Counted from the first letter of the stretch, positions 4,382-23,960 are shown. The stretch is 50,247 nt of DNA from a virus (IMGVR_UViG_3300028666_000045:1-50247); one strand, 5' to 3'. Notes: a model not told the origin generated them from the sequence alone. Program-made: numbers and translations.

Positions 4382-4582
4382 ATGGCGAAAGAACTTACAA
4401 GGCCGGAAATAATTGCAGGGCTGGAATCTGCGCGCCGAGGCCTAATCGAGGCAGGCTACTTCGGTCCCAGCGATCACGGCCAAGGCGACGACGAGGTGCT
4501 GGCCATTGAAGCCGTGCTTCGCGCCTACAACGACGGCGAGAGCATCCACCTCCCCGGCTGCAGCGTCACAGGACAGGGGTGA
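4382..4582 (+). CDS. Hypothetical phage protein, 66 aa
   Basis: The ATG lies after the GGAGCGTTTGACC version of the recurrent ribosome-binding module. The product is mostly helical (TRPEIIAGLESARRGLIEAGYF) with an acidic stretch (GQGDDEVLAIEAVLRAYND). The TGA overlaps the GTG of the methyltransferase-derived gene (GTGA). No family recognised. Confidence 0.6.
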   Translation: MAKELTRPEIIAGLESARRGLIEAGYFGPSDHGQGDDEVLAIEAVLRAYNDGESIHLPGCSVTGQG

Positions 4583-5577
4583 GCGGTGTGGCGGCTTACT
4601 ACAACGAATTTGACCCTTTCGCGGCCGCCTGGCTCCGCGAACTTATCAAAGAAGGTTTGATCGCAGATGGCGAAGTCGATGAACGAAGCATCAAAGATGT
4701 TGCCGGAGACGATCTCCGCGGCTTCGATCAGTGCCACTTCTTCGCAGGCATCGGTGGATGGTCCCTCGCCTTGCGCCTCGCAGGATGGGCCGACGACAGA
4801 CCTGTTTGGACAGGTAGTTCCCCTTCCAGCCGTTCAGCCTCGCAGGGTCGCAAAAAGGGTTTGCCGACGACCGCCACCTCTGGCCCAGCCTGTTCGGACT
4901 TATCACCGAGCGACGCCCTTCAATCTTCTTTGGAGAGCAGGTTGCGTCAGCGGGTGCATGGCTCAGAATTGTGCGAAGTGATCTGGAAGCCGTGGGTTAC
5001 GCCGTGGGGGCAATCCCTATGGAAGCCGCGAGCGCGGGTGCGGACCACCTGCGAGACAGATTCTGGATTGTGGCCAACAGCCAGAGCGAACGACAGCACG
5101 GGGGCGAAGGTGCCGCCGGGGCGCATGGGCGGTCTGGCCTTGAAGCAAGCGGCGTCGGCCGGGCCGACACCGACGACGCGCGATCACAAGGACGGATCAC
5201 CCTGCCAGAACGTGCCAGTGAACGGGCTGCTCGGCAGGATGGTATGGCCCACGCCGACCAGTCTAGCGCCAGCGAAGAACGGCCACAACGAGGCGGGGAA
5301 CAGTGCGGGGCTGGTGGCGATCCGCAAGCTGGCCCTTTACCCTACAGCGCGAGCGAACAAGTGGGGGCCTCCGGACAGCCACGGGAACGTGAGCGCATGG
5401 AGTGGGTCATCGGAGCAGACGGAAAAGCCCGGCGCGTTAAACCCGGAGTTCGTCTGCTGGCTCATGGGATACCCGGCCGCGTGGGTAAATTGCGCGGATT
5501 CGGCAATGCGATCGATCCGCGCCCAGCCGCGGCGTTCATCCAGGCGGCAGCCGAAGCCGTCAGTGCAACTTAGCTAG
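4579..5577 (+). CDS. Cytosine-5 methyltransferase-derived protein with overprinted C-terminal part, 332 aa
   Basis: Residues 1-80 match the start of phage cytosine-5 DNA methyltransferases: YYNEFDPFAAAWLRELI, then FFAGIGGWSLALRLAGW (SAM-binding motif I), then PVWTG. Where the catalytic PCQPFS motif is expected, this frame reads SSPSSRSA, so it departs from the enzyme by one base. The tail nevertheless resembles a second phage family, as I recall it: LESRLRQR, LWPTARANDSTGAK, TPTTRDHKDGS, then EKPGALNPEFVCWLMGYP. The enzyme's own later motifs lie in another frame over the same DNA (4827-5573). The protein is therefore probably full length for the derived family, but cannot be a catalytic C5 methyltransferase. 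The GTG start overlaps the upstream stop. Confidence 0.65.
   Translation: MSGVAAYYNEFDPFAAAWLRELIKEGLIADGEVDERSIKDVAGDDLRGFDQCHFFAGIGGWSLALRLAGWADDRPVWTGSSPSSRSASQGRKKGLPTTATSGPACSDLSPSDALQSSLESRLRQRVHGSELCEVIWKPWVTPWGQSLWKPRARVRTTCETDSGLWPTARANDSTGAKVPPGRMGGLALKQAASAGPTPTTRDHKDGSPCQNVPVNGLLGRMVWPTPTSLAPAKNGHNEAGNSAGLVAIRKLALYPTARANKWGPPDSHGNVSAWSGSSEQTEKPGALNPEFVCWLMGYPAAWVNCADSAMRSIRAQPRRSSRRQPKPSVQLS
4827..5573 (+). other. Alternate open frame carrying C5 methyltransferase motifs (ancestral or second coding frame)
   Basis: This frame is open for about 249 codons and overlaps the 4579 gene. In order it reads QPFSLAGSQKGFADDRHLWP (after motif IV), RPSIFFGEQVASAG (like motif VI), DLEAVGYAVGAIPMEAASAG, ADHLRDRFWIVAN (like motif VIII), and finally VGKLRGFGNAIDP (motif X). 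This is the usual methyltransferase order. The residue before QPFS is Phe where the catalytic Cys should be. A GTG at 4971 is the only obvious internal start. It may be a decaying remnant, a second product, or part of a frameshifted gene. Confidence 0.6.
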
Positions 5578-5594
5578 GAAGGCGAGCGTTTGGA

Positions 5595-5825
5595 ATGACC
5601 ATAAACAAGCACCACCAAGATCAGTCCATGCACGCAATCTGGCGCGGCATCCTGGCTGACAAAGACGTGCAGCCGCATGAGGTCATTTACGAGTTAGCCC
5701 GCCGCCATGCCGAAGCCGAGACTGAGAGATATCGCGTCGCGCTTGAGGACATCGCCAGCGGCCTTAGCGTCCTCAATCCGTACCACGTTGCCAACGAGGC
5801 GCTTGGCCGCGCCGTCACGGAATAG
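5595..5825 (+). CDS. Hypothetical phage protein, 76 aa
   Basis: The ATG follows GGCGAGCGTTTG, a variant of the recurrent ribosome-binding module. The product is His/Glu-rich and helical (YELARRHAEAETERYRVALEDIASGLSVL). ETERYRVALEDIASG resembles short helical ends of many phage early proteins. Function unknown. Confidence 0.6.
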   Translation: MTINKHHQDQSMHAIWRGILADKDVQPHEVIYELARRHAEAETERYRVALEDIASGLSVLNPYHVANEALGRAVTE

Positions 5826-5836
5826 GGGAGGGATTG

Positions 5837-6057
5837 TTGCCGCACTATACCTATACCAATCGGATGGCGGGGCCCGTGATCGACACGGCGCACGGCTCGC
5901 TCTTGAGCAAGCAGCCGGGCCGCCCTTCCCGGTCCATGCAGGCGCGGTCATTTTTGAGTGTGACGCAGCGGACATTCTTGAGGCAGACACCCAGCTTTTT
6001 GACGCGACCGGCTGTGTCGCGACCAAAGAGCCTGCGGTGTGCTGCGCCATTTCGTAA
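5837..6057 (+). pseudogene. Probable frameshifted small phage gene (about 73 codons)
   Basis: The recurrent GGGAGGGATTG module is followed by TTG at 5837, opening PHYTYTNRMAGPVIDTAHG with strongly GC-biased third positions. After about 5895 that frame turns Arg/Ser-rich. The frame one base back then reads LALEQAAGPPFPVHAG and VIFECDAADILEAD, ending at TAA 6055-6057 just before the next ribosome binding site. The second frame has no ATG, GTG or TTG start. The simplest reading is a one-base indel near 5893-5897 in a gene of about 73 codons; a sequencing error is the alternative. Confidence 0.45.
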
Positions 6058-6070
6058 GGGAGCCAAAAAC

Positions 6071-6493
6071 ATGAAGATGGAAAAGCATTTCGTGACGTTC
6101 TTTAGCCCCGGCACTTTTGTCCCGGAGCAAAATTGCCAGGAGGTCAAATCCTGGGACGTGGACGGGGCCGTGAAGCTGGCGGGCGAGATCGTCCAACGGT
6201 ACGGCGCACGGCCCTACGCCTTCCGGTTTCACACGATTGGGCGCGGCGATAAGGACTTCGAGCCGAAAACCACCAAGACTGGCAACCTCTATTTCCTCGG
6301 CGGCAAGGTCAGGACGCTGGCTGAGGTCGAAAAGGACAACGACCCGAAAGAGGAAGTTCTTCGGTCCAACATGCGGGTCAACAAGATCAAGCGGGTCATC
6401 ACGAACGACAATTCCTACCGCTTCACCGTAGAATTTGGCGACAAGGATGTGTTGCTGGATGTGACGCTCCCGCCGTTGAAGAAGTCGGCATAG
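6071..6493 (+). CDS. Conserved phage protein (FFSPGTFVPE family), 140 aa
   Basis: The N-terminus HFVTFFSPGTFVPEQ, the central YGARPYAFRFHT and the LYFLGGKVRTLAEVE segment match a phage protein family I have seen without a known function. A basic stretch (NMRVNKIKRVITN) and a Trp-less beta-rich end follow. The start is the ATG at 6071 after GGGAGCC. An extended open frame reaches back to 5834 but belongs to the preceding gene. Confidence 0.7.
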   Translation: MKMEKHFVTFFSPGTFVPEQNCQEVKSWDVDGAVKLAGEIVQRYGARPYAFRFHTIGRGDKDFEPKTTKTGNLYFLGGKVRTLAEVEKDNDPKEEVLRSNMRVNKIKRVITNDNSYRFTVEFGDKDVLLDVTLPPLKKSA

Positions 6494-6507
6494 GGGAGGG
6501 CTTGATC

Positions 6508-6765
6508 GTGGCTGAGAAAATCGACCACCGGGACGCCTGGAACGTCGCCTGCCACCGCCGCGAGGGCAGCAACTTCGCGCGATCATATATCGAGTTGCGG
6601 GTGGCTTTGCAGCGCCTCGAAGAGTGCTGCGACAGGTCCGCCGCCATCAGGCCCCAAGCGGCATATGACGCCATCGTGGCCGTGCCGGATGGCAGCGACA
6701 CACTTCTCGCCCTGGACTTCGCGCGGAAGGCGGCCCGCGAAATTCTGTCCGCCGTCGATCAATAG
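6508..6765 (+). CDS. Hypothetical phage protein, 85 aa
   Basis: A GTG start is chosen, 6 bases after the GGGAGGG of the recurrent module; a TTG at 6502 is too close. Helical protein with WNVACHRREGSNFARSYIELRVALQRLEECCDRS, carrying a CC pair and another Cys that could bind metal. It ends KAAREILSAVDQ. No family recognised. Confidence 0.6.
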   Translation: MAEKIDHRDAWNVACHRREGSNFARSYIELRVALQRLEECCDRSAAIRPQAAYDAIVAVPDGSDTLLALDFARKAAREILSAVDQ

Positions 6766-6782
6766 GAATGGAGCGCTTGCCG

Positions 6783-7055
6783 ATGACAAAAACAATCACA
6801 CCTGGTCGCTTGGCTTTCCGTGTTGAGGGCGACATGTGGAATGCCTACTTCGCCCGCCTCGACACAATGGAAGGCGCGATCTTCATGGGATCAATCCCGC
6901 TGGGGTTCGTTTCAGAAAATGAGGACCGCAAGCAAGCCTTCATGGAACTGATGAAGGGCTGCTTCGATGATGCGGTCGAAGGAAAACTCGGCGTGCGCCC
7001 GACATGGAGCGATCCCGCGCCAGCACCAGAGCATGAACGCTCTGGTCACGCCTAA
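6783..7055 (+). CDS. Hypothetical phage protein, 90 aa
   Basis: The ATG lies after the GGAGCGCTTGCCG module. The first half is beta-rich (GRLAFRVEGDMWNAYFARLDTMEGAIFMGSI). A helix (RKQAFMELMKGCFDDAVEG) and a Pro-rich tail follow. The composition is like small phage inhibitors or cofactors, but nothing specific is recognised. Confidence 0.6.
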   Translation: MTKTITPGRLAFRVEGDMWNAYFARLDTMEGAIFMGSIPLGFVSENEDRKQAFMELMKGCFDDAVEGKLGVRPTWSDPAPAPEHERSGHA

Positions 7056-7066
7056 GGGAGCATCAA

Positions 7067-7237
7067 ATGACGCCAGGAAAGTTCAACGGTCTGGACCAGA
7101 AAACGGGCGCGCTGATCTTCAAGGACGGCAGCCCGCGCCAGCCCGGCCAAGACCCTGAGACACGCGAATATTCTACCGGGCAGATGATGTTTGACGAAAT
7201 GCACGGCGGCGATACCAACCAGCCGCTTTTCGATTAA
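7067..7237 (+). CDS. Hypothetical phage protein, 56 aa
   Basis: A 56-codon frame with ATG after GGGAGCATCAA. The product is hydrophilic, Gly/Pro/Asp-rich and probably disordered (FNGLDQKTGALIFKDGSPR, then TGQMMFDEMHGGD). It fits exactly between its neighbours in the same operon, which supports coding. No family recognised. Confidence 0.5.
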   Translation: MTPGKFNGLDQKTGALIFKDGSPRQPGQDPETREYSTGQMMFDEMHGGDTNQPLFD

Positions 7238-7251
7238 CAGGGGAGCAGTTT

Positions 7252-7351
7252 TTGAGCGGCATTGTACTTTCCCTCTTTGACCTGACCGATTGGATTTGCC
7301 CGCGCCGTATTCAACGTCAACCACAAACCCGCCATTGCGGCGGTCGCATAG
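7252..7351 (+). pseudogene. Possible remnant of a cytosine-5 methyltransferase N-terminus
   Basis: After a GGGGAGCAG ribosome binding site, a TTG opens SGIVLSLFDLTD. This resembles the start of phage cytosine methyltransferases (VLSLFDLTG). That frame then loses sense, while another frame reads FARAVFNVNHKPAIAAVA before a TAG at 7349-7351. The latter resembles the methyltransferase segment in which an Asn-His follows the beta-2 strand. It looks like a deletion-scarred fragment; about 100 bases are too few to be certain. Confidence 0.3.
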
Positions 7352-7363
7352 ATCGGAGCCAAA

Positions 7364-7678
7364 ATGACCCGCCCAAGAACAGCCGTCCGCCGCACCGTCG
7401 AGAAGCGCAAGCGCGTGGTGACATTCATCACCGTGAAAAAGGAGGTGATGCAGTGCGAGCCGATTTATGTTCGATTCGGGCTGGCCGTCCGCGATGCCCG
7501 GCATGAACTGGATTGGAACCAGCAGGCCCTGGCCGACAAGATGGGCCTGTCACGCGGGTCAATCGCCAATATCGAAACTGGACGGCAGCGCGTCCTGCTT
7601 TCCGATCTTCTGGACTTCGCCAAGGTCTTGAAGCTGGACCCTAAGAAACTCTTTGTTGCCATTACGGCGACCAACTGA
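7364..7678 (+). CDS. XRE-family helix-turn-helix regulator, 104 aa
   Basis: Residues about 43-97 form an XRE/Cro-cI domain: FGLAVRDARHELDWNQQALADKMGLSRGSIANIETGRQR, then LLDFAKVLKLDPKKLF. The recognition helix is SRGSIANIETG. A basic N-terminal extension of about 38 residues (RTVEKRKRVVTFITVKKE) precedes it; an in-frame start at ATG 7448 (MQCEPIYVRF) is possible. It likely binds operator DNA and regulates phage genes. No aspartyl or LexA-like protease domain follows. Confidence 0.8.
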   Translation: MTRPRTAVRRTVEKRKRVVTFITVKKEVMQCEPIYVRFGLAVRDARHELDWNQQALADKMGLSRGSIANIETGRQRVLLSDLLDFAKVLKLDPKKLFVAITATN

Positions 7679-13091: not shown

Positions 13092-13249
13092 CAATCACGC
13101 GCGAGAAAATAGAGGAAATTCGCGCGCGCTATGCCGATCAAAGCTGGCCGAACTACGGATATTTCGTCCACGGCCAGGCAAGGATGGACATCCGAGACCT
13201 TTTAGAATTCATCGATCAGAAACAGACACCACAGGAGCTCAAGCCATGA
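13088..13249 (+). CDS. Hypothetical phage protein, 53 aa
   Basis: ATGA-coupled to the ParB-like gene. Short protein: ITREKIEEIRARYADQSW, then YGYFVHGQARMDIRDLLEFIDQK. The pattern (helix with IEEIRARY, then RMDIRDLLEFID) is common among small phage proteins that fold as two helices. Function unknown. The stop overlaps the next ATG. Confidence 0.6.
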   Translation: MTITREKIEEIRARYADQSWPNYGYFVHGQARMDIRDLLEFIDQKQTPQELKP

Positions 13250-13833
13250 TTCCTCCGAGCCGCCACGGCCTACCGGCCATGGGCCTTATCTCGACAATGC
13301 AGAAAGCGGTGCGCCGAAATATGGAACGCCTCGCGATGGAGTGCGCGGTCGAACTCATCAACAGCAGCAAGGCGCAATGCTCGATGGTCGCTAACCGGCT
13401 CATCGTCATATCTCAAGAAGATATTGACGTCATGGCCCAGCCGCACATCGTCCCGTTCGTAGACTGCTGCGCGCGGCAGATGAAAGACATGTACGACGCG
13501 GAGAACCCCGGCAAGTCGAGGATGTTTGCCGGCAACGCCATCAGACTCATGGCCAGGGCGCCGAAAAGCCGGGAGGGTGATCACTTCCAGGCCGCCATCG
13601 GGCTCAAGAATCTTTTCGGGCTTTCCATCCCGGAAATTCCGGATTGGGCGAACGACGGTCATACGATGAAGGGTAAGCGTCTGGGGCGCGGCGTCGATTT
13701 CTTCCGTGCGGAATCCACCAAGCTCATCCCGCCCCAGGCGGGCGCCCCAGACGCTTACGAGGCGGAGGCTTACGCCATGTGGGAAGAGAAAGAGAAGCGC
13801 GCGAAGGCGGCGAAGGGGATGCTGGAAGAATGA
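13246..13833 (+). CDS. Stand-alone RarA/MgsA C-terminal-like protein, 195 aa
   Basis: Residues about 12-115 resemble the oligomerisation part of RarA/MgsA clamp-loader-like ATPases. ISTMQKAVRRNMERLAMECAVELINSS parallels their ALQK...RRgdedAA helix. ANRLIVISQEDIDVMAQPHIVP parallels the RRL..iASEDiglAdP signature. AIRLMARAPKSREGDHF parallels the APKS motif. No Walker A or B motif is present, so it cannot hydrolyse ATP alone. It may cap or modulate a host RarA or clamp loader, or act in replication beside ParB. The C-terminal Lys/Glu-rich tail is probably helical. Confidence 0.6.
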   Translation: MIPPSRHGLPAMGLISTMQKAVRRNMERLAMECAVELINSSKAQCSMVANRLIVISQEDIDVMAQPHIVPFVDCCARQMKDMYDAENPGKSRMFAGNAIRLMARAPKSREGDHFQAAIGLKNLFGLSIPEIPDWANDGHTMKGKRLGRGVDFFRAESTKLIPPQAGAPDAYEAEAYAMWEEKEKRAKAAKGMLEE

Positions 13834-14054
13834 GCATCGACCGCATCAAAGGCTCCGTGGCTTTCTTCTGCGACCTTCCAGGCTGTGAGGAAGGCATCGA
13901 GACGGGCGAGCGAGACTTCATCGAAGCCAAGGATCACGCCAAGGCGGAGGGATGGCAATTCCGCAAGCGTGACCCGGAGGGCTGGAAGCAGTTCTGCTGC
14001 GACGGTCATGCCGTCATGGACTATCGCGGGCAGAGCCTCGTCGCGAAAGACTAG
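13830..14054 (+). CDS. Small zinc-ribbon-like protein, 74 aa
   Basis: Two Cys groups (FFCDLPGCEEG and FCCDGHAV) flank a helix (DFIEAKDHAKAEGWQFRKRD), an arrangement typical of small phage zinc ribbons. ATGA overlap with the gene before. Its TAG lies in a CTAG that is also the stop of the convergent gene on the other strand, so the two gene blocks abut with no spacer and no visible terminator. Confidence 0.65.
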   Translation: MSIDRIKGSVAFFCDLPGCEEGIETGERDFIEAKDHAKAEGWQFRKRDPEGWKQFCCDGHAVMDYRGQSLVAKD

Positions 14055-14998
14055 GCTGCTTTCGCAATAACCTGATCGAAATACGCCACGGTCTTTTCAA
14101 GACCGGTCTGAAGCCCGACGCGCGGCTCCCATCCAAGCTCGCACCGCGCTTCGCCGATGTTCGGGCAGCGGCGCCGCGGATCGTCTTTTGGTGCCGCGAT
14201 ATGTTCCAGCTTTGATTTCGAGCCGGTTATTTCCCTGATCATGATGGCCAGGTCGAGCACGGAAATCTCTGTCGGATTGCCAAGGTTTACCGGTCCGACA
14301 TAGCCGTGCGGCGTGGCCATCAGTATCAGGAGACCGTTCACGAGATCATCGATGTAGCAAAGCGAGCGCGTCTGCATGCCATGGCCGTGGATCAACAGCG
14401 GTTCGCCGCGCAAGGCGGCGCAGATGAAGTTCGGCACCATTCGGCCGTCATCGACGCGCATGTGTGGACCATAGGTGTTGAAGATGCGGGCCACCTTCAC
14501 GTCCATGCCCTTGCAGGCAGCATCGAAACAGATTGCCTCCGCCGCTCGCTTTCCTTCGTCGTAGCAGGCGCGCGGTCCCATCGTGTTCACGTTCCCACAA
14601 TAGCCCTCGCGCTGGGGATGCTCGGTCGGGTCGCCATAGACTTCGGAGGTTGACGCCTGAAGCAGCGGGATGCCGCGCATCTTCGCGAACTCGACAGCAT
14701 TGAACATTCCCATGACATTGGTGCGCATGGTGTGAAAAGGGTCACGCTGGTAGACGACGGGCGACGCCGAGCAGGCCAGGTTAAAGATGCGATCGGCACC
14801 AATCATTGCGCTATATGGCCTGCAGACATTGTGATGCAGGAAATAGACCAATTCGCTCTGCCGCATGAGCTGGCGAACATTCTCTTCGCTGCCGCTGGTA
14901 AAGTCATCGATGATCGACACCGTGTCGCCCATCTGAAGAAGGCGCTGGCAGAGATTGCGACCGATAAAGCCGGCGCCGCCGGTGACCACAGTTCTCAT
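14051..14998 (-). CDS. UDP-glucuronate decarboxylase (UDP-xylose synthase)-like SDR enzyme, 315 aa
   Basis: Extended short-chain dehydrogenase with the NAD-binding GGAGFIG at residues 7-13 and catalytic YxxxK at Tyr146/Lys150 (ACYDEGKRAAE). The segments NLACSASPVVYQRDP, STSEVYGDPTEHPQ, YCGNVNTMGPR and NTYGPHMRVDDGRMVPNF are characteristic of UDP-glucuronate decarboxylase. That enzyme converts UDP-glucuronate to UDP-xylose in the cytoplasm. The length is normal. The ATG at 14998 overlaps the sulfotransferase stop; an upstream in-frame extension is rejected. Last gene of a coupled string with a glycosyltransferase and a sulfotransferase. Confidence 0.9.
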   Translation of the reverse strand: MRTVVTGGAGFIGRNLCQRLLQMGDTVSIIDDFTSGSEENVRQLMRQSELVYFLHHNVCRPYSAMIGADRIFNLACSASPVVYQRDPFHTMRTNVMGMFNAVEFAKMRGIPLLQASTSEVYGDPTEHPQREGYCGNVNTMGPRACYDEGKRAAEAICFDAACKGMDVKVARIFNTYGPHMRVDDGRMVPNFICAALRGEPLLIHGHGMQTRSLCYIDDLVNGLLILMATPHGYVGPVNLGNPTEISVLDLAIMIREITGSKSKLEHIAAPKDDPRRRCPNIGEARCELGWEPRVGLQTGLEKTVAYFDQVIAKAA

Positions 14999-15642
14999 TT
15001 TACGTTCCAATAATCGAACATGGTCATCATTGTGTCTTCCGCATGGCAAATATCATGCTCCAGCGTCGAAGGAATTACCGTCTTTGCTTGATACTCCAGC
15101 GCATTGGCCGCCACCTTCTGGGGCGGCACGGACCGAAGCGCAGCTTCGTCAAAAGTGTGCCCACTCACAGACAGAAACGTCACCAGATGGTCGACCAGCT
15201 TCTCTGTCCGCAGCACAGCAACTACAGGCGCTGGAAAATCCCAGACTGCTAACTTGGCGCAAATCATCTGGCTGTAGACGCCAGGCATGCGCTCCAGATA
15301 GTTCTCGACAAATTTCCGGAAATCGTTGGACCAGCAGCATGCCATCCAGTGCGCCGCGGCAGCGGGATTGGTGTGAACCTTGTCGGCAAAGCCGCTGGCC
15401 ATTCCGTATGCCCACCGGCTTTTGATCCATGAAACGGGATGGCGGACGCAGCTGAAGACCTTTCGGCCATCGCAAATTTCCGGATGGGTAGCCAGGATCT
15501 CTGGGATGCCGTAATGGTCCTCAATCTCGAATGGTCCTGATTCCCAGGTTTTGATGCCGGCCGCAGCCATCATCGCGCGCACGCTGGAGCCGCCGGTCTT
15601 GGGCAGGTGGATGAACAGGGTTTTTTCAGATACGAGGGCCAT
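14995..15642 (-). CDS. Sulfotransferase-family protein, 215 aa
   Basis: The 5'-phosphosulfate loop is at residues 11-20 (IHLPKTGGSS) and the 3'-phosphate-binding segment at 64-77 (SCVRHPVSWIKSRW), as in enzymes that use PAPS. The family moves sulfate onto sugars or other acceptors. The length of about 215 is normal for the compact bacterial/viral form. The acceptor cannot be read. It lies between a lipoprotein and UDP-xylose synthase, with TAATG and ATGA overlaps, so the acceptor may be the sugar made by the module. Sulfotransferases are uncommon in phages. Confidence 0.85.
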   Translation of the reverse strand: MALVSEKTLFIHLPKTGGSSVRAMMAAAGIKTWESGPFEIEDHYGIPEILATHPEICDGRKVFSCVRHPVSWIKSRWAYGMASGFADKVHTNPAAAAHWMACCWSNDFRKFVENYLERMPGVYSQMICAKLAVWDFPAPVVAVLRTEKLVDHLVTFLSVSGHTFDEAALRSVPPQKVAANALEYQAKTVIPSTLEHDICHAEDTMMTMFDYWNVK

Positions 15643-15815
15643 TATTCATGCAGCCTTTTCTCGGAAACCACGCAGACTTTTCCAGAATAAACATCAGACC
15701 AGCCGATGCCATCTGACCTTGCATAAGTCATCAAACGATAATCGTTGCAAATGTCCTTCGGCGGCCGACCGCACCCCGCCAGAACCATGAAGATCGCAGC
15801 AATCGCATTCTTCAT
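15642..15815 (-). CDS. Small lipoprotein, 57 aa
   Basis: A short gene fitting exactly between its neighbours (ATGA at its start, TAATG at its end). The N-terminus MKNAIAAIFMVLAGC is a lipoprotein signal with lipobox LAGC, so Cys15 would be acylated, leaving a mature peptide of about 43 residues. The mature part (DICNDYRLMTYARSDG, then SGKVCVVSEKRL) has two Cys that could form a disulfide. Predicted location is the periplasmic face of the inner or outer membrane. The role beside the sugar-modification genes is unknown; superinfection exclusion is one possibility. Confidence 0.65.
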   Translation of the reverse strand: MKNAIAAIFMVLAGCGRPPKDICNDYRLMTYARSDGIGWSDVYSGKVCVVSEKRLHE

Positions 15816-16579
15816 CGCTGCGCCGTCTTGTTGGTGCGGGATACGCGAAGGCTAACGCTTGCGACCTCGCGCGATTTCTTGCGGAAGCCGGGTTGCTTGA
15901 AGGACACAGCATTGCCCCATGCTTGGCGAATTTTTCGCGTCGCCTCTTCGAAGCCTTGCGGGGTGATCAAGCCAACGTTCCCACCGCGACCGCTGAAGAC
16001 GGGCCCGCAGTCGAAAAAGAACCTGACATCAGCGTACACGGCACGGTCGAGCAAAAGGGTGCGAAGGGTCCAATCAAGATCAGCCCGCCCTGGTAAGGCA
16101 GTGCTCCACTTCCGATGGCGTGCCGCCCCCATAATACCGAATGCGCGAAATACCGGCTGCACAGGGACGATTGGCTTGAAGTCCGGTTTGATGATTGTGG
16201 TGTTGGGGGTTCCAGAGAAGCAGAAAGTGGTTCGACCCAGGTCTTCGCAGCAGGTCGCCGCGTTCTCCAGAATTGCCAGAATTTCCTCATGGTCGCTGAT
16301 AAACCTCTGGGATCCTGTGGTGACGCGCACGCCGCGGAAATCGTCATCGATCATGACAAGGATGGGCGCTGAGATGTTGTCGACCATCCAGTTGCGGACC
16401 GTCGCGGCAATTTCCATCGGCGGGTGCAGGAGAAGATGTTTTTGGGGCACCTCGGCGGCATAGTCGGCTGCCTCGCGCTCATCCACGCAGATGATGGCGC
16501 TGGGCAGCAATTCCCGGATCAGCGGCATGTTCTGCACGCGCTTCCTGGATGGCACCACGATGGCCATTTTCTGCTTCAA
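15812..16579 (-). CDS. GT-A-like glycosyltransferase, possibly DNA-modification type, 255 aa
   Basis: The start IVVPSRKRVQNMPLIREL, then VRNWMVDNI and ILVMIDDDFRGV (DDD at 78-80, in the place of the metal-binding DxD), suggest a GT-A glycosyltransferase. The layout (PSRxR start, RN before a DDD strand, later RGGNVGLIT) resembles the TET/JBP-associated glycosyltransferases proposed by Iyer, Aravind and colleagues in phages with modified DNA bases. No TET/JBP dioxygenase or modified-pyrimidine synthase is visible here. The substrate may be a sugar nucleotide such as UDP-xylose from the nearby decarboxylase; that link is inference. Confidence 0.65.
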   Translation of the reverse strand: MKQKMAIVVPSRKRVQNMPLIRELLPSAIICVDEREAADYAAEVPQKHLLLHPPMEIAATVRNWMVDNISAPILVMIDDDFRGVRVTTGSQRFISDHEEILAILENAATCCEDLGRTTFCFSGTPNTTIIKPDFKPIVPVQPVFRAFGIMGAARHRKWSTALPGRADLDWTLRTLLLDRAVYADVRFFFDCGPVFSGRGGNVGLITPQGFEEATRKIRQAWGNAVSFKQPGFRKKSREVASVSLRVSRTNKTAQR

Positions 16580-16797
16580 TGCTTTGCTCCGGATGGCGCG
16601 CTGAAAGCTTCCACCGCCGTGTTGATCACCACCACGATGGGCTGACCGGCATTTCCGATGACCTGGAAGCCGTTGCAGAAATTCAGGTTGATGCCTGCGT
16701 ATTTGAGGAATTCCACCAGCCCGGGGTGCATGCCGGGCCCGAAGGTCATGACCTTCGCGTGCTCTTCCTTTTCCTTCTTTTCGCTGTCGGCGGTCAT
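16576..16797 (-). CDS. Hypothetical protein between ParB-like and glycosyltransferase genes, 73 aa
   Basis: Coupled by ATGA at both ends. A charged start (SEKKEKEEHAKVM) leads into a compact part (HPGLVEFLKYAGINLNFCNGFQVIGNAGQPIVVVINTAVEAF) with alternating helix and strands. No family recognised. Its fixed place inside the modification operon suggests an accessory role. Confidence 0.6.
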   Translation of the reverse strand: MTADSEKKEKEEHAKVMTFGPGMHPGLVEFLKYAGINLNFCNGFQVIGNAGQPIVVVINTAVEAFSAPSGAKH

Positions 16798-17477
16798 TTC
16801 AAAACCTTGATCAGGTCTTCCGCCTTGCAGGCGCGCGCGGTGCCCATGCGGCCGCGGCGCTTCATCGGTTTCAGCCCAAGCTTATCGCAGATCAGGTTCC
16901 AACTTTGGCTGTCGCTCGCCAGCACCACCAGATAGTCGTAATGCTCGTGCGGCTCCAAGGCCATGCCGGGCACTTCCATCTTGGCTTCCGGATCACCGCG
17001 GTCTTCCTCGTCCGCCATCTGGTCCGTCAGATCGGTGATGAGACGGCGCAGTTCGGCGTTATCGTCTAGGTCAACCGTCTTGAGCAGTTCGGCCAGGAGC
17101 TTTTCATCGGTCTCGGCCAAGCCGGCGATAGGATCGAAGGTGGCCAGAACCTGGGCCGCCTCCTGGTCGTTCAGATCGGTGATCAGAACCGGGACCATTT
17201 CGCTGCCGGCGATGTCCTGCCGCAGATGACCGTCAAGGATTTCGAGCGAGCCATCCGCCAGCTTGCGGGTGACGATGGCACCGACGATGCCGACTTTCTT
17301 CAGCATGGCGCCTAGCGCGCCGCGCTGGCTTTCCGGATGCAGACGCCAGTTCCTGGCGTTTTTCTTCAGGTCGCTTGCTTTGACGCGCTCGAAACCAATG
17401 ATGCGATCGCGGAAGGCTGCAGCGGCATCCGATGCCGGTGCCTCAGTCGCCGCCTGACGTTCGGCGCGCTTGCTCAC
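16794..17477 (-). CDS. ParB/sulfiredoxin-like domain protein, 227 aa
   Basis: Residues about 25-115 form a ParB-like N-terminal domain: VKASDLKKNARNWRLHPESQ, then LGAMLKKVGIVGAIVTRKL, LEILDGHLRQDIA and ITDLNDQEAAQVLATFDPIAGLA. This subtype (NWRxHP start and LATxDP end) occurs in phages, often near DNA methyltransferase or DNA-modification genes. The C-terminal 80 residues contain KLGLKPMKRRGRMG, which is basic. The GTG start overlaps the previous stop; a longer reading from 17495 is possible. Confidence 0.8.
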   Translation of the reverse strand: MSKRAERQAATEAPASDAAAAFRDRIIGFERVKASDLKKNARNWRLHPESQRGALGAMLKKVGIVGAIVTRKLADGSLEILDGHLRQDIAGSEMVPVLITDLNDQEAAQVLATFDPIAGLAETDEKLLAELLKTVDLDDNAELRRLITDLTDQMADEEDRGDPEAKMEVPGMALEPHEHYDYLVVLASDSQSWNLICDKLGLKPMKRRGRMGTARACKAEDLIKVLK

Positions 17478-17995
17478 ACAAGGCCGCCGTTCCAATCGAT
17501 GTCGGAAGATAGAACCTCGCGCGGCGCGCGCACCCAGGATTCCGGAAGCTGCCCGGAGGCGATGGCAATGGCCTTGCCCTCTTCGCGGTCCACAAAGCGC
17601 TGGCCCGTGGTCCAGAAACCGGCGATGTCGCCAGGCTCTGGATCCTTGTAGCCGCGGATCATGGCGTGACTGCCTTCCTTGACGTGAAGGATTTGCTCGC
17701 CGCGCCGGATGGCGCAGCCCGCCAGGCGCTCGCGTTCCATCTTCAGCTGGTCCGCCATGGTGTTGCGCACCTTTGCCTGATTGACCTTCTCCGCCATCGG
17801 ATTGTGAGGCAGCACGACGCGGATGGGGCGTGTAGTCTCGATGCGCCCGGCGGTCGGCATCTTTGCGACAGTGCGGTTGACCTTTCCAGTCACGACATTG
17901 AGCTGATTGAGTTCGCGATCCAACTCGCGCCAGATAAGGCCGCGCTCGCGCGCCTCGTTGCGCCGCGCGCCTCGATAATCGGATGCGGGTCTCAT
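17474..17995 (-). CDS. Conserved phage protein, 173 aa
   Basis: Segments ELDRELNQLNVVTGKVNRTVAKMP, HNPMAEKVNQAKVRNTMADQLKMERERLAG, and SHAMIRGYKDPEPGD followed by RFVDREEGKAIAIASGQL look like a phage family I have met without a function. The last part resembles a Nudix-adjacent or ADP-ribosyl-hydrolase-like GRFVxR...AxxIA motif of phage proteins. Basic and hydrophilic. Coupled by ATGA to the gene before. Confidence 0.65.
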   Translation of the reverse strand: MRPASDYRGARRNEARERGLIWRELDRELNQLNVVTGKVNRTVAKMPTAGRIETTRPIRVVLPHNPMAEKVNQAKVRNTMADQLKMERERLAGCAIRRGEQILHVKEGSHAMIRGYKDPEPGDIAGFWTTGQRFVDREEGKAIAIASGQLPESWVRAPREVLSSDIDWNGGLV

Positions 17996-22064: not shown

Positions 22065-23702
22065 TCAATGTTGAAGGAATGCGATCGGGCGCTGCTTCGC
22101 CGCTGGTGCCCAACAGAGACCACAATTCCCGCAGTGCGTGGTGCCGCCGGTCTGGGCGGGGCAGGTTATGGCGCTATCTGGCTTGCTGCTGGCACTATCT
22201 GGCACCACGATGGTGCGCGGCCCGCGCGCAGCCCCGCTGGTGCGGATGGCGAACCGGTTCCAGCGCTTGGCGCGGAGACGGTTGATTTCGGCGCCGATGG
22301 GATCCGATGCTTCCCGGGCGGTGTAACCGAAAATGCGCAGGGCCGGGAACCAGTCCAGCTGGGCTTCCCAGAATTTCACATAATCGACGGAGTAAAAGTC
22401 TCCGAGGATGTGCAGGCGCAACACGAAGCCGCCGGGGTGACGCTGCTGTAGGAAGCCGAGCTCCAGGCCCAGCGCCTGTTCCAGCCGGTCGCCGTGCTTG
22501 TAGCGGACGGACTGGATCATGTTATTGCCGTAGCAATTATGACTGAGAAGCCCCTCGGCTATCAGCGTGCCGGTGCTGGTTTTAATGGTCACAACCTTTC
22601 GATCACCGGCAGGTTCAAGTGCTAAGACGGTGGCGGTCCGGCCTCCGCGCCCCAGCGTGTCCTGACCTTCCCATAGTTCTTTGGCCTTTTCGATCAATCT
22701 GGTAGGTCTGATCACGCCCAAAAAACGGATCACCTCGCGCCAGCCGCCAAGGATGTCAAAATGGCAAATCTCGGTATGCGCGACACCGGCGATGCGGTGA
22801 TAGCGAGAAACCTGGAAGCCGAGCCGCTGGGCGACAGCTTCAATATCATCAGCCAACGGAGTCGGCCTTTGGGCCCATCCGGCAGTTACCTTTTGAAAAC
22901 TCTTGCCGTTTGGCTGCTTGACGCAATAACCCTCACCTTCGACAAAACCGCGAAGACGGCCAGCTTCATAGCTGCGGTCTGATTCCCACGGTCTTGCGAA
23001 GAACTGGATTTCAGTGTCCGGCGTCAGATCGGCGGTCTTGATCCAGCGGTAGCCGGCCCTGCTGTTCCTGGCGAGCCAGAGATGGCCGGCGCTCGCTGTC
23101 ACGTCACCCTGGTCGGTCCGGACCTTGAAACAAGGCTGGATGGCCCGCCCAATTTCTTCGACGGTCGCAATCTTCGTTGACCTATGCCCAAGCTTTCGGC
23201 CTTCTTCCTCGAAGGCGCAAATCTCTGAACCGACATGCAAAGTCCCAATCTCGCGCCAGCGAAGATCAGCGCATAGGACGCGCGTTTCAGGAACGAGACA
23301 ATTCAGCCACTGCTTGCAGGACCGCGGGCAGGTGGCGCGCTCTTCCAGCGTCAGGGTGTAGATTGGCATGCCCTTCCAGGCGCCCTTCAGAACCTCTCCG
23401 CCGATCTTGCGCTGCTGCCAGCCGGGCTTGAGCACACCCATGCGCCCTGGCGCCTCGACGCGCCCGTGAAACCGGCTCTGGGCTTTGACGTCAGCCGGGC
23501 TGCCGGCGGCGATGGGGCGCCCACCGCCGGTCGGATAGTGGAGGTGCTGGCGCATGGACTGGCCATCGATGGCGCCCTTGGTGCGGCGCAGCGCGGCGGC
23601 GATTTCAGTCTTTGACAGACCCTGATGCCAGAGTTCGGCAAGGCGGTCTTTTTCCCAGTCCGGCCAGTGGCCACGACGAAGCGCAAGCGTCTGCTGAGGC
23701 AT
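22065..23702 (-). CDS. Gp88-like phage protein interrupted by an intein, 545 aa precursor
   Basis: Residues 10-55 form a GcrA-like helix-turn-helix (HWPDWEKDRLAELWHQGLSKTEIAAAL). The host domain then runs IYTLTLEERATCPRSCKQWLN, is interrupted at residue 135, and resumes at 390 with CYGNNM, FVLRLHILGDFYS, IFGYTA, FAIRTSGAARGPRTIVV and a Cys-rich CPAQTG...CGNCGLCW. This resembles the phage 'gene product 88' family with clustered Cys, which may bind a metal or iron-sulfur centre; its activity is unknown. Spliced product would be about 290 residues. The ATG is placed by GGAGGGGTT. Confidence 0.8.
   Translation of the reverse strand: MPQQTLALRRGHWPDWEKDRLAELWHQGLSKTEIAAALRRTKGAIDGQSMRQHLHYPTGGGRPIAAGSPADVKAQSRFHGRVEAPGRMGVLKPGWQQRKIGGEVLKGAWKGMPIYTLTLEERATCPRSCKQWLNCLVPETRVLCADLRWREIGTLHVGSEICAFEEEGRKLGHRSTKIATVEEIGRAIQPCFKVRTDQGDVTASAGHLWLARNSRAGYRWIKTADLTPDTEIQFFARPWESDRSYEAGRLRGFVEGEGYCVKQPNGKSFQKVTAGWAQRPTPLADDIEAVAQRLGFQVSRYHRIAGVAHTEICHFDILGGWREVIRFLGVIRPTRLIEKAKELWEGQDTLGRGGRTATVLALEPAGDRKVVTIKTSTGTLIAEGLLSHNCYGNNMIQSVRYKHGDRLEQALGLELGFLQQRHPGGFVLRLHILGDFYSVDYVKFWEAQLDWFPALRIFGYTAREASDPIGAEINRLRAKRWNRFAIRTSGAARGPRTIVVPDSASSKPDSAITCPAQTGGTTHCGNCGLCWAPAAKQRPIAFLQH
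22536..23300 (-). mobile_element. Intein, 255 aa, with LAGLIDADG-like endonuclease motif
   Basis: Block A begins at Cys with CLVPETRVLC. Block B is GDVTASAGHLWL. The central part has GRLRGFVEGEGYC, a single LAGLIDADG-like motif (usual LAGFxExDG). The C-terminal blocks are KVVTIKTSTGTLIAEGLLSHN, ending with His-Asn, and the next extein residue is Cys. All catalytic positions of a class 1 intein are present: Cys1, block-B His, His-Asn and Cys+1. Block B has Ser for the common Thr. It sits exactly between the Asn and Cys of the host protein's Cys cluster. Confidence 0.9.
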
Positions 23703-23745
23703 AACCCCTCCTTCTCCCCTTTCTTCCCAAACCCATACCCTGTGT

Positions 23746-23824
23746 CTGTCTGGAGGACGGGAAGGGGAAAGAGGCGGGAGGCGCGGAGGGCGCTTGGCCT
23801 GGGCTTTCCCGCCCGTCCAGACAG
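23746..23824. repeat. Long imperfect inverted repeat in the leader of the Gp88-like gene
   Basis: CTGTCTGGA (23746-23754) pairs with TCCAGACAG (23816-23824), and inner segments such as CGGGAA/TTCCCG extend the stem. The unpaired middle is purine-rich on the plus strand. It lies 44 bases upstream of the ATG at 23702 in the minus-strand transcript. It could form an mRNA leader structure or end transcription from the HNH gene. No poly-T follows. The rest of 23703-23960 holds no gene I can support. Confidence 0.5.
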
Positions 23825-23960
23825 AACTTACGGGGATCAGCCGCAAGCCCGGCGGTTTCCCACCGGCGCGCAAGAATTGCGCTGATTCCTTTTAGTTCCG
23901 CAACTTGATTTTCATTAAGACGCGCGCGCGCCTGTGAATATTAACGGGCGGTTTCGCATC

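Follow-up and report, generated by a model that had tools for sequence, protein, structure and literature searches.

A recurrent phage cassette of ParB-like protein, glycosyltransferase and sulfotransferase: a possible new variant of sugar hypermodification

A run of six minus-strand genes in a viral contig

The IMG/VR record IMGVR_UViG_3300028666_000045 (50,247 bases, the whole stretch of viral DNA that was analysed, hereafter the window) carries a minus-strand run of six genes, including those of a ParB-like protein, a glycosyltransferase (GT), a sulfotransferase-like protein (ST) and a UDP-xylose synthase (UXS). A reading made earlier from the sequence only had proposed these six open reading frames, and all of them were confirmed:

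16794..17477, minus strand: ParB-like protein (Pfam ParB_N E 0.0014, below cut-off; PHROG ParB/methyltransferase families; alignment of 19 ParBs)
16576..16797, minus strand: 73-aa protein (no Pfam or PHROG match; no real tblastn match in relatives)
15812..16579, minus strand: GT of the TAGT / T-even beta-alpha-glucosyltransferase family (PF20691, phrog_842, AlphaFold2 fold)
15642..15815, minus strand: putative lipoprotein of 57 aa with lipobox LAGC (from its sequence; no homologue in relatives)
14995..15642, minus strand: ST, 215 aa, resembling sulfotransferases dependent on 3'-phosphoadenosine-5'-phosphosulfate (PAPS) (AlphaFold2 fold; conserved motifs)
14051..14998, minus strand: UXS, i.e. 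UDP-glucuronate decarboxylase (phmmer match to human UXS1, 4gll)

Overlaps of 4-5 bases had been claimed for every junction. Four of them do overlap by 4 bp (ParB/73-aa, 73-aa/GT, GT/lipoprotein and ST/UXS), but the lipoprotein and ST genes share a single base, in TAATG. The GT gene starts with TTG and the UXS gene with ATG at 14998. The ParB-like gene starts with GTG at 17477, sharing 4 bp with the upstream gene (17474-17995), and an alternative TTG start at 17495 is possible. The 4-bp chaining goes on upstream of the ParB-like gene (17474/17477, 17992/17995, 19592/19595), and therefore the six-gene run closes, at its 3' end, a longer array of co-directional genes, which lies on the replication side together with a DnaB-type helicase. 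Translational coupling of the six genes is likely, though not special to them. Overlap alone is no mark of a unit, and unit status rests on gene-order conservation in other phages.

The ParB-GT-ST order is conserved in diverse phages

Viral contigs (numbered L002 onwards) were gathered by searches from GT, ST and a second P-loop family, hereafter PL, which fills the place of ST in some relatives; identical copies were left out. Eighteen contigs carry a close GT (window, L002, L007, L008, L012-L015, L017, L018, L036-L038, L056-L058, L060, L062). A ParB-like gene precedes GT in all 18, and an ST-type protein follows ParB-GT in 17 (exception L018; in L060, PL faces GT), a count that is biased, several contigs having been found via ST or PL themselves. 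When only the ten contigs from the window and the GT searches are considered (window, L002, L007, L008, L012-L015, L017, L018), nine have an ST-type protein. The ST family is present in the window, L002, L015, L017 and L036-L038, and PL in the rest of the 17. One further contig, L010, combines ParB, a distant TAGT-type GT and the ST family, with an MgsA-C-like gene separating them. Repeated gain of ST and PL on the GT tree was considered and found unsupported; on that tree the ST-type GTs cluster together, if with modest support (80/80).

The ParB-GT-ST core is thus the conserved part of the cassette, shared by distantly related phages. The proposal of a six-gene unit stands for this core, whose order was recovered in diverse phages; the full six-gene order is not conserved, and the 73-aa protein, the lipoprotein and UXS lie outside the core. 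A tblastn search of phages matched neither the window GT nor the window ST, and bacterial genome contigs held no relative of either. A megablast of half the window against phages returned a single match of 72 bp.

The ParB-like protein has an N-terminal domain of the ParB_N/Srx type that scores below the ParB_N cut-off in the window (19.1 vs 26.3 bits), while the cassette ParBs of Teamocil and Javan291 reach 33.9 and 38.6 bits. HTH_ParB had no match in the window protein, and another C-terminal domain occupies the place of the helix-turn-helix. Given these results, the protein is named ParB-like only. The C-terminal domain (FEHYDYVVVLA...W...LG...GxGRAI) is common to nearly all of the 19 aligned GT-linked ParBs. 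The earlier view of a subtype found near DNA-modification genes is supported, the partner being typical of such loci. Tblastn against all relatives gave no real match for the 73-aa protein, which matched nothing in Pfam or PHROG, and no homologue of the 57-aa lipoprotein. The lipoprotein had been taken as pointing to the cell surface; being found in no relative, it is weak evidence for this.

The glycosyltransferase resembles DNA glycosyltransferases

The GT passes the curated Pfam cut-off for TAGT (PF20691, 31.4 vs 27.5 bits). Together with 22 relatives (all 23 aligned), it matches phrog_842 and no other PHROG (E 4e-12 for the window protein), a family named for the T-even beta-alpha-glucosyltransferase that adds a second sugar to glucosyl-hydroxymethylcytosine (hmC). 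The DDD motif lies at residues 79-81, D79-D80 being conserved. The AlphaFold model (pLDDT 91.4) has a GT-A fold against the PDB, with Z up to 14.8, and its best viral structural matches include TAGT proteins; a Klebsiella phage beta-glucosyl-HMC-alpha-glucosyltransferase is also among the viral matches (TM 0.75). The fold library returns protein glycosyltransferases as well, for example GalNAc-T2. In the modelled structures, the GT fold appears nearest to TET-associated and T-even-type DNA glycosyltransferases. The sequence-only reading had assigned the GT to the TET/JBP-associated type with a GT-A DDD motif; Pfam, PHROG and AlphaFold all bear this out, and the GT-A fold leaves no refutation on that ground. 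As a separate observation, L026 has two tandem GTs of this family after one ParB (5800-7499), as if two sugars might be added.

The sulfotransferase-like proteins and their PAPS supply

None of Pfam's models matched the window ST, and the best Pfam sulfotransferase score among relatives, that of the L015 ST, was 17.5 bits vs a cut-off of 22. The AlphaFold model of ST (pLDDT 86.2) aligns to heparan sulfate 2-O-sulfotransferase (Z 11.6, 178 residues, 3.4 A, about 10% identity), and all 50 listed chains matching it are sulfotransferase-fold proteins (Z 8.9-11.6). The sole PDB profile match is heparan sulfate 6-O-sulfotransferase, a weak match (E 0.2) with both PAPS motifs in register. These motifs are KTGG for the 5'-phosphosulfate-binding loop (5'-PSB) and RHPVSWIKS for the 3'-phosphate-binding site (3'-PB); K15-T-G-G18 and R67...S75 are invariant across close relatives. 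Fold and cofactor motifs support the earlier claim of a PAPS-type sulfotransferase. The PL proteins have no Pfam match over cut-off, and their motif lacks the customary Ser of the 3'-PB. A contig of the distant GT clade, L024, carries a Pfam-grade Sulfotransfer_3 protein in the ST slot.

PAPS, the co-substrate and sulfate donor of sulfotransferases, is the product of adenosine-5'-phosphosulfate (APS) kinase. An APS kinase gene directly follows the ST or PL gene in L054 (E 2e-54), L014 and L039 (E about 1e-14 to 1e-16), and none over cut-off was found in the other records of the 34 searched. Distant PL-type proteins also occur apart from ParB-GT, in L065 and L066, near UDP-galactopyranose-mutase-like and other sugar genes.

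UXS occupies a swappable sugar-donor slot

By family, the identity of UXS is certain, as had been claimed: phmmer against PDB sequences gave human UXS1 (4gll) at E 1.3e-90 over residues 2-309, with the next family at E 4e-30, and the catalytic and cofactor motifs are intact (GGAGFIG for NAD, TSEVYGD with the TSE, YDEGK as the YxxxK). No other cassette seen has UXS, but some carry different sugar enzymes. A protein of the reversibly glycosylated polypeptide (RGP) / UDP-arabinopyranose mutase family is found in L008 (Pfam E 2e-36) and L062, and a UDP-galactopyranose mutase (UGM) in L014 (Pfam E 4e-62) and L056; a neighbour of the L019 cassette is a UDP-glucose 4-epimerase-like short-chain dehydrogenase/reductase, and a UDP-glucose dehydrogenase lies near the cassette in L025 (2.5 kb away) and in Teamocil (gp90). 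On the GT tree, the RGP pair forms a supported clade and the UGM pair another, as expected if the donor enzyme fits GT specificity. From these gene neighbourhoods, UXS is the putative occupant of a swappable sugar-donor slot, and the swapping suggests an arms race over sugar chemistry. In another setting, Pseudomonas phage QdP_Psa3 (L069, PV055685.1 2691-11540) groups a thymidylate-synthase-annotated gene, UXS and UDP-glucose dehydrogenase in a stretch of 9 kb, a further candidate for DNA modification with a pentose.

The same ParB-GT pair occurs in phage TET loci

Iyer, Aravind and colleagues reportedly described ParB-TAGT-TET/JBP DNA hypermodification loci in phages. One distant relative in our set, L004, has the order ParB-GT-TET (Pfam Tet_JBP E 4e-11), and 80 phage TET loci (L077-L156) were fetched with it. 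A ParB-like gene was located within 2.5 kb in 63 of the 80, a detectable TAGT-like GT beside TET in 38, and both in 28, in the same overlapping order and usually as ParB-GT-TET. ST, PL, UXS, RGP and UGM were found in 0/80 TET loci. These loci share the ParB-GT pair yet never have ST, which suggests that one ParB-GT core is accompanied either by TET or by the sulfotransferase. The pair in TET loci is the strongest evidence, though indirect, that the GT may act on DNA.

A methyltransferase relic and other genes of the window

Two further genes of the window bear on the cassette:

13246..13833, plus strand: MgsA/RarA C-terminal-domain-like protein, convergent neighbour (PF12002 below cut-off; synteny)
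4579..5577, plus strand: C5-cytosine methyltransferase gene, frameshifted, PCQ changed to PFQ (PF00145 at 4818-5096, in another frame)

The methyltransferase was considered as an active acceptor maker and rejected: its reading frame is disrupted and it lacks the catalytic Cys (PCQ to PFQ, region 4805-4840), and because of these two changes the enzyme is probably inactive. The claim that the window has no modified-base synthase thus held for TET and for thymidylate-synthase-type enzymes, but a C5-cytosine methyltransferase gene is present, though broken. The surrounding region (4579-5600, plus strand) is open in two frames, each with similarity to annotated phage methyltransferases, one via phrog_1008 and the second via PF00145; both frames recur at 35-41% identity in Tunturi_1 and Klebsiella VLCpiS13e. 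This could reflect conservation of an overprinted gene, or arise as a side effect of conserved DNA.

The MgsA/RarA-C-like gene is found repeatedly beside the ParB-GT cassettes of relatives, Teamocil included, and scores over the PF12002 cut-off in L025. Elsewhere in the window, a 602-aa protein (22065-23873, minus strand) gave weak LAGLIDADG-like and GcrA-like matches; it might harbour an intein or a homing domain, and it hints at an alphaproteobacterial host.

Proposed function of the cassette and alternative explanations

We read the cassette, tentatively and with slightly less than even confidence, as a variant of phage DNA hypermodification built on the ParB-GT core, in which a phage-made sugar would be transferred and then sulfated. 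UXS would decarboxylate UDP-glucuronate, presumably host-made, to UDP-xylose, and the TAGT-type GT would transfer the pentose, the likeliest acceptor being a base of phage DNA or a sugar already present on that DNA, with the ParB-like partner bringing the GT to DNA or holding it there. ST would then add sulfate from host PAPS to the transferred sugar. Such a charged and unusual sugar mark could hide the DNA of the phage from nucleases, as well as from defences that excise bases or recognise sugars. Relatives would exchange the donor (arabinofuranose, galactofuranose, possibly galactose or glucuronate), and some would bring their own APS kinase. The xylosylated and possibly sulfated mark suggested in the sequence-only reading is thus partly supported, and the idea is largely right in spirit with a narrower conserved unit: the enzyme set and the conserved order are in favour, whereas DNA is a putative acceptor and the usual makers of a glycosylatable base are absent or broken.

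Several observations weigh against this reading. ST and PL both score below Pfam cut-offs. T-even-type DNA GTs take UDP-glucose as donor, and pentose use is suggested here by a neighbouring gene only; a single-protein search reaching close relatives found no second UXS cassette. The acceptor base is left unexplained by the enzymes found: TET_JBP (PF12851) is absent from the window and positive in 1 of 35 records, the TET-type L004; a thymidylate-synthase-type hydroxymethylase (PF00303) scores over cut-off in none of the 35, window included; and a C5-methyltransferase occurs in 2 of 23 records, the window (broken) and L007. The Tet_JBP profile matched in no control genome, yet the same search detected L004. 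Many records are fragments, but several span 40-74 kb and that of Teamocil is a complete genome, which had no TET or thymidylate-synthase match and in which neither gene nor a C5-methyltransferase is annotated. In TET systems, TET makes the hydroxyl that the GT then uses. Here either an unrecognised enzyme would supply the acceptor hydroxyl, or the GT would act at a different position, or something other than DNA would be the acceptor. We consider DNA somewhat favoured as the acceptor, and a virion protein unlikely in comparison. Many cassettes also adjoin terminase genes, as virion-modifying genes can (GT or ST in L007, L009, L010, L018, L022-L024, L027 and Javan291).

This terminase neighbourhood fits a cassette whose enzymes would put sugar and sulfate on a protein of the virion (capsid, portal or tail), altering virion charge or recognition, with ParB as a mere neighbour. 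The match to protein glycosyltransferases such as GalNAc-T2 and the lack of a base-hydroxylating enzyme point the same way. However, a ParB with the matching C-terminal domain precedes GT at nearly all loci, phage TET loci use the same ParB-GT pair, the window cassette sits in a replication-side array distant from structural genes, and, compared with other viral proteins, the GT falls among TAGT proteins and HMC-glucosyltransferases, so that virion modification appears unlikely, if the most serious competitor. That the cassette modifies a glycan on the cell surface, of host or phage, for superinfection exclusion and with the lipoprotein taking part is distinctly improbable. Surface glycans commonly bear sulfated and furanose sugars, a small lipobox protein lies between GT and ST, and the distant PL homologues of L065 and L066 are near UGM and other sugar genes; but the lipoprotein is in no relative, the cassette has no flippase or membrane GT partner, and ParB and the TET-type cassettes indicate DNA. 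The cultured relatives of Microbacterium cluster EC are, moreover, lytic (PMC7302621).

We give a similarly low probability to the P-loop proteins being sugar or nucleotide kinases, or other P-loop enzymes, which would leave the mark an unsulfated or phosphorylated sugar. The missing Pfam matches of the window ST and PL and the missing 3'-PB Ser of PL would be accounted for, whereas the 50 of 50 sulfotransferase-fold chains, the heparan sulfate 6-O-sulfotransferase profile match with both PAPS motifs, the three APS kinases adjoining ST or PL and the Sulfotransfer_3 protein in the same slot of L024 argue for sulfotransferases. Ordinary TET-type DNA glycosylation, with the TET gene outside the fragment, would agree with the TAGT family, the ParB and the C5-methyltransferase relic of the window. 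It is very improbable, since TET is in none of the 34 other records apart from the TET-type L004, several of them 40-74 kb long and one a complete genome, the C5-methyltransferase is broken, and TET loci carry none of the cassette's companion enzymes.

Relation to known systems

The ParB-TAGT-TET/JBP loci and the cassette both place a GT of one family after a ParB-like partner, with genes that overlap; unlike those loci, the cassette has no TET and has a sulfotransferase and a sugar-donor enzyme that they lack. The T6 beta-alpha-glucosyltransferase was shown by deletion to make gentiobiosyl-hmC, and sugar diversification protects T6 DNA from the Brig1 glycosylase (PMC11078745). The T2/T6 enzyme and the window GT are both phrog_842 members, but the latter is distant in sequence, its donor is likely not UDP-glucose, and the window has no hmC pathway. 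An activated, phage-made pentose, as proposed for the cassette, has counterparts in RB69, whose DNA carries arabinosyl-hmC (PMC6024577), and in Shewanella phage Thanatos, where cytosine carries a pentose and a UDP-xylose pyrophosphorylase is present (PMC12838424). In both, the pentose goes on cytosine, the donor genes are not UXS, dCMP hydroxymethylase-type genes are present and sulfation is unreported. SP-15 DNA bears an acidic sugar (PMC5977210). Because of these precedents on phage DNA, pentose and acidic-sugar chemistry is plausible, while no precedent for sulfation was found in the papers searched.

In Microbacterium cluster EC (Quhwahvirus), to which Quhwah and Teamocil belong, ParB (gp88), GT (gp89), UDP-glucose dehydrogenase (gp90) and an MgsA-C-like protein (gp91) form one array, with 4-bp overlaps among gp88, gp89 and gp90; compared with the window, the GT is distant, no sulfotransferase was seen and the donor enzyme would yield UDP-glucuronate. 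An example from a cultured phage is L033 (NC_073376.1 49063-51929), and the GT match is found in 56 Microbacterium phage records. Heparan sulfate 2-O- and 6-O-sulfotransferases share the fold and both PAPS motifs with the window ST, which differs in being about 10% identical and a soluble phage protein of 215 aa. The literature searched contained no report of a phage sulfotransferase with DNA modification or with APS kinase, and sulfated sugars on phage DNA were described nowhere in it.

The combination is thus real and recurrent, and its parts had not been linked before in that literature. Within phage sugar hypermodification, the cassette would be a variant of a new sort and perhaps even a new chemical class. 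That a phage family has DNA bearing sulfated pentoses or furanoses, made by a ParB-guided GT and a PAPS sulfotransferase with neither TET nor hydroxymethylase, is in this full form a rather doubtful proposition.

Glucose, arabinose and glucuronate are already known as sugars on the bases of phage DNA. Where a DNA-type GT is associated with a sulfotransferase, donor enzymes and, in some relatives, a means of making PAPS, sulfated sugars are predicted on the DNA or the virions of the phage. If true, sulfated-sugar DNA would add a new chemical class to the known DNA modifications, with an acceptor of a new kind. Should DNA be the acceptor, how the base is readied without TET or hydroxymethylase becomes a question, and new DNA-labelling enzymes may follow. 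The cultured Microbacterium phages, with their ParB-GT-UDP-glucose dehydrogenase version, make the core question directly testable.

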